Assembly (NCBI RefSeq): GCF_038594945.1
Contig: NZ_JBCFYD010000002.1
Location: 1,426,001-1,490,000 of the forward strand
Direction: 5' to 3'
Length of the DNA: 64,000 nucleotides
DNA from: Fodinibius sp. Rm-B-1B1-1
Lineage (GTDB): Bacteria > Bacteroidota > Rhodothermia > Balneolales > Balneolaceae
The position numbers were made by a program, and so were the translations under genes. Positions within the stretch are counted from its first letter, which is position 1, and each line of letters opens with the position of its first letter. This document shows, in pieces, positions 25,567 to 30,085 of the stretch. Under the pieces are notes generated by a model. That model saw only the letters and a program-made list of their open reading frames with translations. It was not told the origin of the DNA and searched no databases.

Positions 25567-28056
25567 TTAGGACTTTTTTCGTTCCCTATCCCAATGTCGA
25601 AAAATGGAAACGCTAAATCCAGCCATCAGCAAAAAGGTACCCAGCCATACTACTGATATAAATGGCTTCTCTTCGGCTACCAGCAACACCCACTGCTCTT
25701 GAATCTTGGACTCAATACCGCGGATTTTAAGATCGATCCCTCCATTTGATGGGTCCACACTTGTAAACTGAATACTTGCATCTTCATAACCGGGAATTGC
25801 TACCGGTGGAGCATAGGTCCAGTTTTCATCATCCTGCAAGTAAATTGAAAATAGTGGGCGGATTGGCACTGACGAATCACTACCCCGCTCCGAAAGCTCA
25901 AGATTCGCCCGAATCGCAACTAAGGTACTGTCTCTCAGCTGCTGATCATCGACCTCAGAATAGTCATTAAAGGTCAGATCAAAAATATCAAACTTAACCG
26001 TTTCGCCACGAGATAAGCTCACCTCCTGCACTGCTATAGAATCATCTTCTGTTGATGCAAGGCCCGGTCGCTTTTCGGCCGATTCTTTAGCCTGCTCATT
26101 TTTACGCTCAACGTACGAACTACCGGCCACATATAAATAGATATCACTCATCCAACCTGTACGCACATCGGGATCAACCGACCACTGAATTTCGGACTGC
26201 GAAGATGATGATAACATGGGATACACCTGTGGACTTAACACAAACTGTTCCCCCTCACCATCGGCCGGCTCAAATTTAATACGGTATTGTTGCTGTCCCG
26301 GACGCTCTTGATTCTTGAGCGTATATCCTTCATAGGTCACCTTATAACGGTCATCAAGAATTTTAGGTTGATCCAGGTTGAGCTCTAAAAATTCAACTTT
26401 CTGCGTCTTTTGAAATCCCTGCTCATCCGTAACTTCACCGCGTTCAATAGCAGCATTATAATTTTTAACGGACTCATCCAGCAGCATCTCGTTATAAGCC
26501 GACGAAGCCAAAATACCGAGCAGCAATATCCCAAACCCAATATGAGTAAGCGTACCACCTATAAGCATGGGATTCCGATGAATTAGCCGATACATAACCA
26601 CAGAATTCCCCACCACGGCAAACCATGCTGCTAATAGGTATACCATGTAATAGAGGTTTCGAACATCCCCGATAATAATCGTAGCCAACGTAAGCGCACA
26701 TGAAATTGCTACCGGCCACAACAAGTCAGCAGCCAACGATTCCGCATCCTGACGCTTCCAAAACAGGAACTGCCCCAATACTGTCATGATTGCCGCTATA
26801 ATTGCCAACGGCATCGTCCATTCATTATAAAAGCTAACCTCGGGCGGCGTGGGATTTTCTACAAACAATCGACCAATGATAGGTGAACTCGTTCCCAGAA
26901 TAATGACTAATCCGAGCAAAAACAGCACCATCGCGCCAGCAAAAGTCATAAACTCGCGACTTAAAAGCTTGGACTCTTTTTCCTGTGAAGGAAGTTCTTT
27001 GTATCGATAAACAAACAGACCGAGCCCAATAATAGTAACGGCTGCCATAAAAGCGACCAGCTGGTTATATAGTCCCAAATCCACAAAACTATGCACCGAT
27101 GAATCTGATAAAATACCCGACCTTGTAAGAAAGGTTTCGTATACAATCGCCACATAAGCAAGAATCGCAAAAATAATAGATGCTTTCTGTGACGTTGAAC
27201 TTTTGCGCTGGATAATCATGGCATGAATACCCGCTGTGCCCAACAGCCATGGTACAAATGAGGCATTTTCTACCGGATCCCAAGCCCAATATCCACCAAA
27301 TGATAGGGTCACATACGCCCAGTAACCTCCAAGAAAAATAGCGGTTAGCAGCGCCACGTTAGCGCCAAGTGTCCATGGAAGTGCTGGCGTCACCCACTCA
27401 TTGTATTTGCGCTTCCACAATGCGGCCATCGCAAAACAATATGGCACCGTCATCATTGCAAACCCAGTAAAAAGAATGGGCGGATGAATCATCATCCAGG
27501 GGCTTTTGAGCAAGTCATTAAGTCCTTTGCCATCCTGGGGGACAAAATCGGGATTAGATTGCAAAAACGGTGCGTTGGGCATTGCCTCAGCCAGCGACCG
27601 GAATGGCGAAGCTCCAAGCTGGAAATCTCCTATTGAAATACCGGAAATCATCGAAAGCAAGAAGATCTGAGTCAGTGTCAAGAAAAACAGCACCGGTCCG
27701 CGATACGGGTCACGCGTCCATTTCATAAGACCGAATCCAATCAGGATGGAAAACAATATCCAAACCATAAAGCTCCCTTCCTGACCGCCCCAAAAAGCTG
27801 ATATCAGGTACTTGATCTGGAGGTTGCTGCTGGTATAATTGTAAACGTAATAGAAATTAAACTGATGCGTAAGGATGATATACAACAGTAGTCCCGAAGC
27901 AGCCAGCAAGAAAAGTCCCTGCAGCCCAAATAGCCAGTTTGATATCTTAAAGTGCTTATACGTATCGTTCTGGGCGAAAAAATAGTAACCAATAGCCGCC
28001 AGAATAGCGCTTACCAAGGCGGCATTGACAAACAGGTCTCCTAAAAATCCAATCAT
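25567..28056 (-). CDS. ccmF: Cytochrome c heme lyase subunit CcmF (CcsA/NrfE family)
   Basis: Integral membrane protein (829 residues, about 14 helices) of System I cytochrome c maturation that takes heme from holo-CcmE and joins it to apocytochrome c in the periplasm. The tryptophan-rich heme-handling motif is GGYWAWDPVENASFVPWL (residues 254-271). Other conserved parts are FWGGQEGSFMVW near residue 90 and SPWMMIHPPILFTGFA with His191. A large periplasmic loop of about 240 residues lies before the last helix (about residues 560-800), longer than in E. coli CcmF (647 residues in total). The final helix WLGTFLLMAGFSVSIFRHW ends the chain. It starts 6 bases after ccmE in the ccmCDEF operon. CcmG and CcmH are not in the window. 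Confidence 0.95.
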   Translation of the reverse strand: MIGFLGDLFVNAALVSAILAAIGYYFFAQNDTYKHFKISNWLFGLQGLFLLAASGLLLYIILTHQFNFYYVYNYTSSNLQIKYLISAFWGGQEGSFMVWILFSILIGFGLMKWTRDPYRGPVLFFLTLTQIFLLSMISGISIGDFQLGASPFRSLAEAMPNAPFLQSNPDFVPQDGKGLNDLLKSPWMMIHPPILFTGFAMMTVPYCFAMAALWKRKYNEWVTPALPWTLGANVALLTAIFLGGYWAYVTLSFGGYWAWDPVENASFVPWLLGTAGIHAMIIQRKSSTSQKASIIFAILAYVAIVYETFLTRSGILSDSSVHSFVDLGLYNQLVAFMAAVTIIGLGLFVYRYKELPSQEKESKLLSREFMTFAGAMVLFLLGLVIILGTSSPIIGRLFVENPTPPEVSFYNEWTMPLAIIAAIMTVLGQFLFWKRQDAESLAADLLWPVAISCALTLATIIIGDVRNLYYMVYLLAAWFAVVGNSVVMYRLIHRNPMLIGGTLTHIGFGILLLGILASSAYNEMLLDESVKNYNAAIERGEVTDEQGFQKTQKVEFLELNLDQPKILDDRYKVTYEGYTLKNQERPGQQQYRIKFEPADGEGEQFVLSPQVYPMLSSSSQSEIQWSVDPDVRTGWMSDIYLYVAGSSYVERKNEQAKESAEKRPGLASTEDDSIAVQEVSLSRGETVKFDIFDLTFNDYSEVDDQQLRDSTLVAIRANLELSERGSDSSVPIRPLFSIYLQDDENWTYAPPVAIPGYEDASIQFTSVDPSNGGIDLKIRGIESKIQEQWVLLVAEEKPFISVVWLGTFLLMAGFSVSIFRHWDRERKKS

Positions 28057-28062
28057 GAAATA

Positions 28063-28464
28063 TTAGCTCTTTGCAGCAGTTGCTTGTTCAAATTCGGCTT
28101 CGTCGGCGTTATTATACTTCGAAGGACATTTCATCAACATATCGTTGGCATAAAAAACACCATTTTGCATCTCCCCGATTACAACCAGCTGGTCTGCTTC
28201 TTCAAAATTATTGGGTTTGGGTTTGGGATATATTACCCGTCGAACATTGCCATCTTCATCTTCCATATAAAAGGAAAACTGTTTGGTCTCCATCGAAAAG
28301 CCATACTTTTGCGAATCGTCCCACTTCCCTACCACATGGGCGCCTTCCATTCCTGAAGCCTGTTCAAAATTTACGTATGTGCTAATACTGTTTCCAAAGT
28401 TATACATTAGCAGCGATGTAAAACCAACGATTGCGATTATTCCAATAATCAGCTTCGGTTTCAT
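28063..28464 (-). CDS. ccmE: Heme chaperone CcmE, Cys-type (CxxxY)
   Basis: Membrane-anchored periplasmic heme carrier: receives heme through CcmC and passes it to CcmF. One N-terminal membrane helix (residues 4-22) precedes an OB-fold domain (residues 30-110; DQLVVIGEMQNGVFYANDML matches the family strand pair before the heme site). In most bacteria heme is linked covalently to a His in HxxxY. Here the matching site is Cys113-Pro-Ser-Lys-Tyr117, i.e. CxxxY. Cys-type CcmE has been described from some sulfate reducers and archaea. The ATG overlaps the ccmD stop (ATGA), so translation is coupled. The acidic C-tail after residue 117 is short. Confidence 0.93.
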   Translation of the reverse strand: MKPKLIIGIIAIVGFTSLLMYNFGNSISTYVNFEQASGMEGAHVVGKWDDSQKYGFSMETKQFSFYMEDEDGNVRRVIYPKPKPNNFEEADQLVVIGEMQNGVFYANDMLMKCPSKYNNADEAEFEQATAAKS

Positions 28465-28733
28465 GATATTTCCTTTCGATTAGATTTTTCTATTTCTTCT
28501 TCGAGCTTTCCGACTTTCTTATCTACCCTGATGATAAAAAATAACAATACAAACCAGATAACCAGGCTCACGCCCAAGACTATAAAAATAAGATCATATG
28601 ATGCAACAGCCTGTATTAAAGGACTTGCCTGATCCAGCCCCGTGGTGCCATCCCACTGCTGGGAATAGTTCTCAGTTAATGTATCAACGGCCGCAACGGT
28701 ATCTTCTTGTGCCTGAATTAGTGAAAATTTCAT
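28461..28733 (-). CDS. CcmD-like small membrane protein
   Basis: A 90-residue protein in the ccmD position between ccmC and ccmE. It has one membrane helix (about residues 47-71, LIFIVLGVSLVIWFVLLFFI) followed by a cytoplasmic coiled-coil tail (VDKKVGKLEEEIEKS), the general plan of CcmD, which helps release holo-CcmE from the CcmABC complex. The 45-residue periplasmic N-terminal part is longer than in E. coli CcmD (69 residues in total). Both ends overlap neighbours by ATGA, which shows tight coupling. The assignment rests on position and topology; sequence likeness to known CcmD is weak, as is normal for this family. Confidence 0.75.
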   Translation of the reverse strand: MKFSLIQAQEDTVAAVDTLTENYSQQWDGTTGLDQASPLIQAVASYDLIFIVLGVSLVIWFVLLFFIIRVDKKVGKLEEEIEKSNRKEIS

Positions 28734-29434
28734 GCTCGTTGTTGATCAGTTAAATGCTTAACAGTTTTATAGCGATTGAGAATATCATTCAGCCAAACCG
28801 CCAATGCGATAAATCCAATTACTGCCGGATAGAAAATATAACGCAGTTCCGGAGCGGTAATCTCACTAAAAGCCGGATTTCCATCAGCTCCCGGATGTAA
28901 ACTTGGCAACTGGCGCGGAATGATATACAATAAAAAAGGGATAGTCGTAGCCGCAAATACATTAAATACAGCAGCTATCTTGGCTCTCTTTTCAGGGTTA
29001 TCAAAAGCCGTTCGCAATACAAAATACCCTACATAAATCAGCATTCCCAATGCCGAAAGATTCATACGTGGCTCAGCAAAAGTCCACCACGTGCCCCATG
29101 TAAAGCGTGCCCAGATAGCACCAGTCAGAAGTCCACAGATCCCGAAAATAAGCCCCACTTGGGTTGCCGTTTCGGCTTTGCGGTCAAATTTCATAATCGG
29201 GTTATTCAAATAGCGGATGCTGTAATATAATCCCGTTGCAAAACAAACTGACATCGTAAACCACATAGGCACATGCAGAAACAGGTTTCGCGCCGATTCT
29301 TTGAGAATAGCGATTTCGGGAATGGGGATCAGAAATCCGGCGATAATGACAACCGTCATCCAAACAGCAACGACGTATTTCCAGGGTTTTAGAGCCATCA
29401 AAAAATCAAATTCTTTAGCACCCACAGTGGGCAT
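28730..29434 (-). CDS. ccmC: Heme export/handover protein CcmC
   Basis: Six-helix membrane protein that presents heme to CcmE. It has the tryptophan-rich signature WGTWWTFAEPRMNLSAL in the fourth-fifth helix region and the conserved histidine in LFLHVPMWFTMSVCFATGLY near residue 60. E. coli CcmC reads WGTWWVWDARL at the same place, so the WWD element is changed to WTFAEPR here. Of two starts, TTG (29435-29437) directly before ATG (29432-29434), the ATG is chosen. First gene of ccmCDEF; its stop overlaps the ccmD start. ccmA and ccmB, usually just upstream, are absent: the next gene is divergent. Confidence 0.93.
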   Translation of the reverse strand: MPTVGAKEFDFLMALKPWKYVVAVWMTVVIIAGFLIPIPEIAILKESARNLFLHVPMWFTMSVCFATGLYYSIRYLNNPIMKFDRKAETATQVGLIFGICGLLTGAIWARFTWGTWWTFAEPRMNLSALGMLIYVGYFVLRTAFDNPEKRAKIAAVFNVFAATTIPFLLYIIPRQLPSLHPGADGNPAFSEITAPELRYIFYPAVIGFIALAVWLNDILNRYKTVKHLTDQQRA

Positions 29435-29557
29435 CAATTAGAAAGCGTGATAATATACGAAATCTGTTTTGGAAAAATTAGTTTTTTCGGCTTAGTCTTT
29501 CCCGAATTTTACCTACCTTTACAATAGATTAATTAACTGTCAAAAAGTTTGAATCTT

Positions 29558-30085
29558 ATGGTCGATCAATCTACCCAAAAGACGATCACCCTGCAGCCTA
29601 ACTGGAAGAATTATCTTCTCGGATATACCCTTTCTATTTTGCTGATTCCACTCTTTGGAATTGGGTTAGTTGGGCTATATTGGATCTACAAAAAACAAAA
29701 CAAATACACTTATACATTTAGCGATACCCAAATTTCTTCGCGTGATGACAAATATCAACGCAATATTGATTTGGTGAATATTGAGAATGTCAGCGTTGTG
29801 CAAAGTTGGCTGCAAAAGAAAGCTTCTGTCGGAGATATCGTCCTAAAAACTACAGCGACCTCAATGACTCTTCGAGGCATGGACGATCCCTTTGCCTTGA
29901 AGGACATGCTTGAGAAAGCGATTTCTATCCAAAAAGAGCGCCTCAAGAAAAAAGAACAAACTAAGCCAGAGCAACCCGAAGGCAAACCCGGATCGATGGA
30001 GCGTATGGATTATCTGACAGGACTATGGCAGCAGGGACTTGTTTCGGATGATGATTTTGAGAAAGAGAAAAAACACTTTGAGTAA
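29558..30085 (+). CDS. Membrane protein with PH-like (bPH2) domain and C-terminal SHOCT motif
   Basis: A 175-residue protein: a membrane helix at about residues 17-40, then a bacterial PH-like domain (residues about 45-115; YTFSDTQISSRDDKYQRNID and VGDIVLKTTATSMTLRGM are typical strand patterns of bPH2), a charged linker with Lys/Glu/Pro, and a short SHOCT motif at the end (MDYLTGLWQQGLVSDDDFEK). SHOCT motifs occur in oligomerising, often membrane-linked proteins. Function is unknown. A TTG nine bases upstream is in frame, but the ATG at 29558 is preferred. Divergent from ccmC with about 120 bases between. Confidence 0.78.
   Translation: MVDQSTQKTITLQPNWKNYLLGYTLSILLIPLFGIGLVGLYWIYKKQNKYTYTFSDTQISSRDDKYQRNIDLVNIENVSVVQSWLQKKASVGDIVLKTTATSMTLRGMDDPFALKDMLEKAISIQKERLKKKEQTKPEQPEGKPGSMERMDYLTGLWQQGLVSDDDFEKEKKHFE

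Follow-up and report, generated by a model that had tools for sequence, protein, structure and literature searches.

Which cytochrome c maturation pathway would be served by a ccm cluster that encodes a cysteine-type CcmE and adjoins neither ccmA, ccmB, ccmG nor ccmH was the question raised by a locus of Fodinibius sp. Rm-B-1B1-1, a halophilic member of the Bacteroidota. The window, the whole stretch of 64,000 nucleotides that was analyzed (C2:1426001-1490000), belongs to a 3.41 Mb assembly of six contigs with an estimated completeness of 97.7%. The cluster (C2:1451567-1455437) lies on the minus strand in the order ccmC, ccmD-like, ccmE and ccmF, with the following features in window positions.

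28730-29437, minus strand: ccmC, haem-handling protein (PF01578, 67.5 bits, cut-off 29.9; alignment with E. coli CcmC)
28461-28733, minus strand: ccmD-like gene, 90 aa (position between ccmC and ccmE; sub-cut-off profile scores)
28063-28464, minus strand: ccmE, Cys-type, 133 aa (PF03100; CcmE-like predicted fold)
28114-28128, minus strand: codons of CPSKY, residues 113-117 (position derived from the ORF coordinates and confirmed in the sequence)
25567-28056, minus strand: ccmF, haem lyase, 829 aa (PF01578 and PF16327)

A ccmCDEF operon with a cysteine-carrying CcmE

The ccmC and ccmD-like genes overlapped by 4 bases, as did the ccmD-like gene and ccmE, and ccmF started 6 bases past ccmE, so the four genes likely form one operon. 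The preliminary description of the locus as a ccmCDEF operon with a CxxxY-type CcmE was borne out by the PF03100 match, the C113-P-S-K-Y117 residues, the gene order and the tight spacing. The ccmD-like protein scored 19.5 bits against TIGR04391 (cut-off 24) and 16.8 bits against PF20077 (cut-off 23.5); since both values were under the cut-off, its designation is based chiefly on its position between the genes ccmC and ccmE. None of ccmA, ccmB, ccmG and ccmH adjoined the operon among the flanking genes tested, which encoded TruA, a PH-domain protein, a DPP-IV-type peptidase and a desaturase. The gene for the bacterial PH-domain protein (PF03703, 23.2 bits; 29549-30085, plus strand) was divergent from ccmC and stood beside ccmC again in a number of Balneolaceae-type loci.

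The ORF at 28063-28464 encodes a genuine CcmE that carries a cysteine. It scored 43.1 bits against PF03100 (cut-off 24.6), and its AlphaFold model (mean pLDDT 83.9) consisted of an N-terminal helix (residues 3-24) and a beta-rich domain. Foldseek with this model returned four matches with E < 0.001, all of them CcmE structures (8ce8_E, 2kct, 1j6q and 1lm0; TM-scores 0.46-0.53, normalised by query length), placing 2kct, the Cys-type CcmE domain of D. vulgaris, among the nearest solved structures. A phmmer search of the PDB with the single CcmE sequence gave no match. The profile of a 29-row CcmE alignment (A1) reached 2kct, 8ce8_E and 1sr3 at about 1e-3 and 1j6q at 0.33, and an unrelated Nup160 chain scored slightly better by E-value than the CcmE structures; this profile search is weak alone, and the CcmE assignment therefore rests on the Pfam and fold matches.

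The CcmE motif read Cys113-Pro-Ser-Lys-Tyr117 at the place where E. coli CcmE has HDENY, and Cys113-PSK-Tyr117 was invariant across A1, which sustains the earlier claim that Cys113-x-x-x-Tyr117 takes the place of HxxxY. Comparison with a Cys-type example agreed, the A1 profile pairing the cysteine of the window family with that of D. vulgaris 2kct. No second CcmE was found in the genome (97.7% complete assembly), and the HxxxY motif of classical System I was absent, the sole CcmE carrying CPSKY. Complete ccmABGH genes together with a second, His-type CcmE, which had been named beforehand as speaking against the variant, were accordingly not encountered, the genome having one CcmE only. A His-type System I in which the protein encoded here is degenerate and the real CcmE lies elsewhere is thus an extremely improbable explanation: one CcmE was present in this assembly, the cysteine was found in every relative read, and a second, His-type CcmE was rejected.

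CcmB, a candidate CcmA and other maturation components

The cluster had been described as lacking the CcmAB ATPase, which was correct for the operon and incorrect for the genome, with CcmB encoded on C2 and a probable CcmA on C1. CcmB was located at C2:1379666-1380253, about 71 kb from the operon, with 68.1 bits against PF03379 (cut-off 24.9) and 43.4 bits against the NCBIfam model, far under its cut-off of 156.2. Its flanking genes are, we assume, a PTS EIIA-like gene on one side and a DNA polymerase III delta'-like gene on the other. With this PF03379 gene on the same contig, a true absence of CcmB was rejected.

The CcmA model TIGR01189 matched 39 genome stretches, none over its cut-off of 131.6. 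The best candidate, C1:247976-248602, scored 113 bits and had TIGR01189 as its own top NCBIfam family. In an ATPase comparison of 12 loci from the 39 stretches, with L014 left out by a Walker-motif filter, it was the best match to the ATPase near ccmB in locus L161 (124 bits vs 97 for the next), whereas E. coli CcmA slightly preferred another ATPase in blastp (83 vs 78 bits). A TIGR01189 match at 1e-22 or better was present in 79 of 80 Rhodothermia genomes; the CcmA-like match was 1.3e-31 or better in 76 of the 80, the best listed second match being 3.3e-25, and in G022 (partial), G096 and G239 the matches lay in the paralogue range. Judged from these sequence comparisons, the C1 ATPase is probably CcmA, and a true absence of CcmA was rejected with less certainty than that of CcmB. 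In L161 (genome G271), a ccmA-like gene and ccmB were near neighbours, separated by an ORF of about 140 codons.

These distributions also bear on whether the system might be a reduced one, truly without the CcmAB ATPase, with both the loading and the release of CcmE left to CcmC and CcmD. Such a reduction would fit the 60 Balneolaceae-type loci L025-L084, which contained neither ccmA nor ccmB within flanks of up to 6 kb, and three genomes with CcmE and no CcmB match at 1e-3 (G162, G212 and G237). However, CcmB was present in 192 of 296 Bacteroidota genomes, 189 of these being among the 192 with CcmE (lists compared by eye), ccmB immediately preceded ccmC in five Rhodothermales-type loci (L085-L089), and a CcmA-like ATPase was found in at least 76 of the 80 Rhodothermia genomes, leaving an ATPase-free system very unlikely. 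With CcmB and a probable CcmA encoded elsewhere, the missing ccmAB genes are a local property of the operon.

The cluster had further been said to lack ccmH, and the genome-wide search agreed, giving no PF03918 match at 1e-3 (best E 0.03). CcmH was also infrequent in the Bacteroidota sample, with matches at 1e-3 in 7 of 296 genomes, two of them over the cut-off. The reported lack of thioredoxin-like parts held for the neighbourhood of the operon; genome-wide, thioredoxin-fold proteins exist, none of them over the CcmG cut-off. The CcmG model TIGR00385 gave 13 genome matches at E ≤ 0.1, the best with 64.9 bits (cut-off 123.15), and a WCxxC protein was present at all five of the match loci read, so a thioredoxin-fold reductant could serve.

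System II (CcsB/ResB and CcsA) was rejected, as no ResB scored over the cut-off: PF05140 gave two sub-cut-off genome matches, one at E 0.09, which lay within ccmF, and one at E 0.10. A genome-wide PF01578 search found CcmC and CcmF and no further protein. A cytochrome c family had eight genome matches, and CXXCH proteins were found at all seven loci read, indicating that likely substrates are present.

Distribution of the cysteine motif in Bacteroidota

The cysteine occupied the haem position in all 80 CcmE loci examined, these being the best 80 of 538 confirmed relatives; the nearest, from Aliifodinibius salipaludis (L025), had a CcmE with 95% identity. The six search patterns for relatives included the peptide MKCPSKYN, and this sample therefore leans towards cysteine. 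A sample free of this pattern bias was obtained by locating CcmE with the Pfam model in 296 Bacteroidota genomes, of which 192 had a match and 104 had none. The loci of 90 of the 192 genomes were read (the 30 best-scoring and 60 hand-picked further rows), and every one carried cysteine, in CPSKY (88 loci) or CPSRY (two loci). None of the 90 came from the window's own family, and some species are possibly shared with the 80-locus sample. Two genomes, G062 and G294, had two CcmE matches each by Pfam.

The cysteine in 80 of 80 and 90 of 90 loci argues that its presence at the motif is not due to chance, and the same variant in every relative examined means that it is not peculiar to the window genome. 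Because 104 genomes had no CcmE match and the fused System II protein CcsBA is known from Bacteroides (PMC10663686), the term phylum-wide is used here to mean in every CcmE read.

Cys-type CcmE proteins define System I*, which the review of Stevens et al. (2011, PMC3601427) describes for archaea, Desulfovibrio and other bacteria. In that review, CPSKY was the majority motif (25 of 36 bacterial genomes), and CcmH was retained in about one third of the systems and hence is not a defining feature. System I* also occurs in other deltaproteobacteria, Chloroflexi and Firmicutes; CcmD belongs to its bacterial form and is absent in archaea. The window genome resembles System I* in the cysteine of CcmE in place of histidine, the CPSKY motif, CcmB, CcmC, CcmE and CcmF, a probable CcmA, a CcmD-like protein and the lack of any CcmH found; its CcmB, CcmC and CcmF all scored above the Pfam cut-offs. 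It differs from System I* in having ccmA and ccmB unlinked from ccmCDEF and WxFAE in place of WxWD in CcmC. With the classical System I of E. coli (ccmABCDEFGH) it shares the CcmB, CcmC, CcmE and CcmF homologues, the probable CcmA and the ligand histidines of CcmC and CcmF, whereas CxxxY replaces HxxxY, no CcmH was found and no CcmG scored over the cut-off.

For Methanosarcina acetivorans, it has been reported that ccmABCEF suffices and that the CXXXY motif is required (PMC9084895). The ccmABCEF1F2 system of that archaeon likewise combines a CXXXY CcmE with the absence of CcmH, but it has no CcmD and its CcmF is in two pieces, unlike the CcmD-like protein and single long CcmF of the window (PMC9084895). 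The Cys-type Ccm system found here is thus of a known kind, System I*, and is not new. Its distribution in Bacteroidota is possibly new: Bacteroidetes are not mentioned in the System I* section of PMC3601427, and the string "bacteroid" is absent from the main text of that paper. Among the matches listed, no literature dealt with a Cys-type CcmE in Bacteroidota, as judged by titles, the beginnings of abstracts or term counts; an earlier mention is possible in Goddard 2010 or Allen 2006.

The proposed pathway and the altered CcmC and CcmF

We consider it highly likely that the operon is the core of System I* cytochrome c maturation, with CcmB and a probable CcmA acting in trans, and the variant System I proposed earlier for this locus fits the Cys-type CcmE and the lack of a CcmH match at 1e-3. 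In this pathway, Cys113 of CcmE would receive haem through CcmB (C2) and the probable CcmA (C1), working with CcmC and CcmD; the bond would probably be a thioether, and Tyr117 is the likely iron ligand. CcmF would then take the haem from CcmE and attach it to CXXCH apocytochromes without CcmH. The placement of haem on the cysteine, its release by CcmAB and its transfer by CcmF are inferred by analogy with Desulfovibrio and Methanosarcina.

Haem might instead be held on CcmE non-covalently, by coordination through Cys113, and reach CcmF with no thioether formed on the way. Such a route would be another chemistry of System I*, with a gene content that overlaps that of the pathway outlined above. 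The isolated CcmE domain of D. vulgaris (PDB 2kct) reportedly binds haem non-covalently (PMC3884852), but Desulfovibrio CcmE has also been reported to carry covalent haem (PMC3601427), a haem stain revealed holo-CcmE in M. acetivorans (PMC9084895), and we regard the non-covalent route as improbable.

Two partner proteins of the System I* operon were altered. In CcmC, both ligand histidines were retained in the window protein and in every row aligned, whereas the WxWD position read WTFAE in the alignment with E. coli CcmC, in which Asp126 of the motif caps helix IV (PMC10457321). The 60 Balneolaceae-type loci yielded 57 CcmC rows (two lacked ccmC and one fragment was dropped), with F-E and one inserted Ala or Ser at the W-D position in 55 rows and L-E in two. 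Of the other Bacteroidota rows, 57 of 66 retained W-D; within the window's class but outside its family, F-D occurred in 29 of 36 rows, and it was also present in the three L090-L104 rows. The alignment suggests that the acidic residue may have been shifted instead of lost. The altered WxWD motif, which is possibly new for the family's CcmC, means that CcmE loading could differ.

CcmF retained its four ligand histidines (191, 278, 322 and 505), present in all 55 rows, and the WWD motif. Its model matched the Thermus CcmF structure 6zmq (Z 35.1, 564 residues, rmsd 3.2), the sole Foldseek match at E 0.001 or better; by VIA-align, 6zmq and CcsBA (7s9y) stood well above the remaining rows. The Thermus protein has 660 aa overall, compared with 829 in the window. 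A periplasmic loop longer than that of E. coli CcmF was located at about residues 522-799, ahead of the last helix, and the span from His505 to Trp804 measured 298 residues vs 122 in E. coli. The equivalent span was 226-382 residues in 53 of 54 Bacteroidota rows, which comprised the window, nine chosen loci of the best 80 relatives and 44 of 60 phylum loci; in the other 16 phylum loci, Rhodothermales loci among them, no CcmF was found. This long loop is possibly new.

According to PMC3601427, bioinformatics did not find a feature that compensates for the missing CcmH. CcmE-bearing Bacteroidota might use a System I* in which an enlarged C-terminal periplasmic domain of CcmF replaces CcmH in holding the apocytochrome, combined in Balneolaceae with a rebuilt WxWD loop of CcmC (WxFAE). 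A need for the long CcmF loop in all CcmH-less systems here was contradicted by genome G014 (L236), in which a Cys-type CcmE and the lack of any CcmH match went together with a full-length CcmF of 688 aa and an E. coli-sized loop of 127 residues. The link between loop and CcmH is therefore a weak hypothesis, and this genome moved our assessment of the replacement from doubtful to clearly unlikely. Genomes G066 and G076 had weak, sub-cut-off CcmH matches yet long CcmF loops of 237 and 290 residues. If the replacement is true, the enlarged CcmF domain and the rebuilt CcmC loop would be the compensating feature missing from PMC3601427.

Within this large phylum, the organisms that have a CcmE are placed by its cysteine motif in the Cys-type branch of cytochrome c assembly, which is less understood, and the CcmC motif and the CcmF loop provide two modified partners that can be tested. 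How the CcmE thioether would be broken again is a question raised in PMC3601427, and Bacteroidota with a Cys-type CcmE could help to address it.
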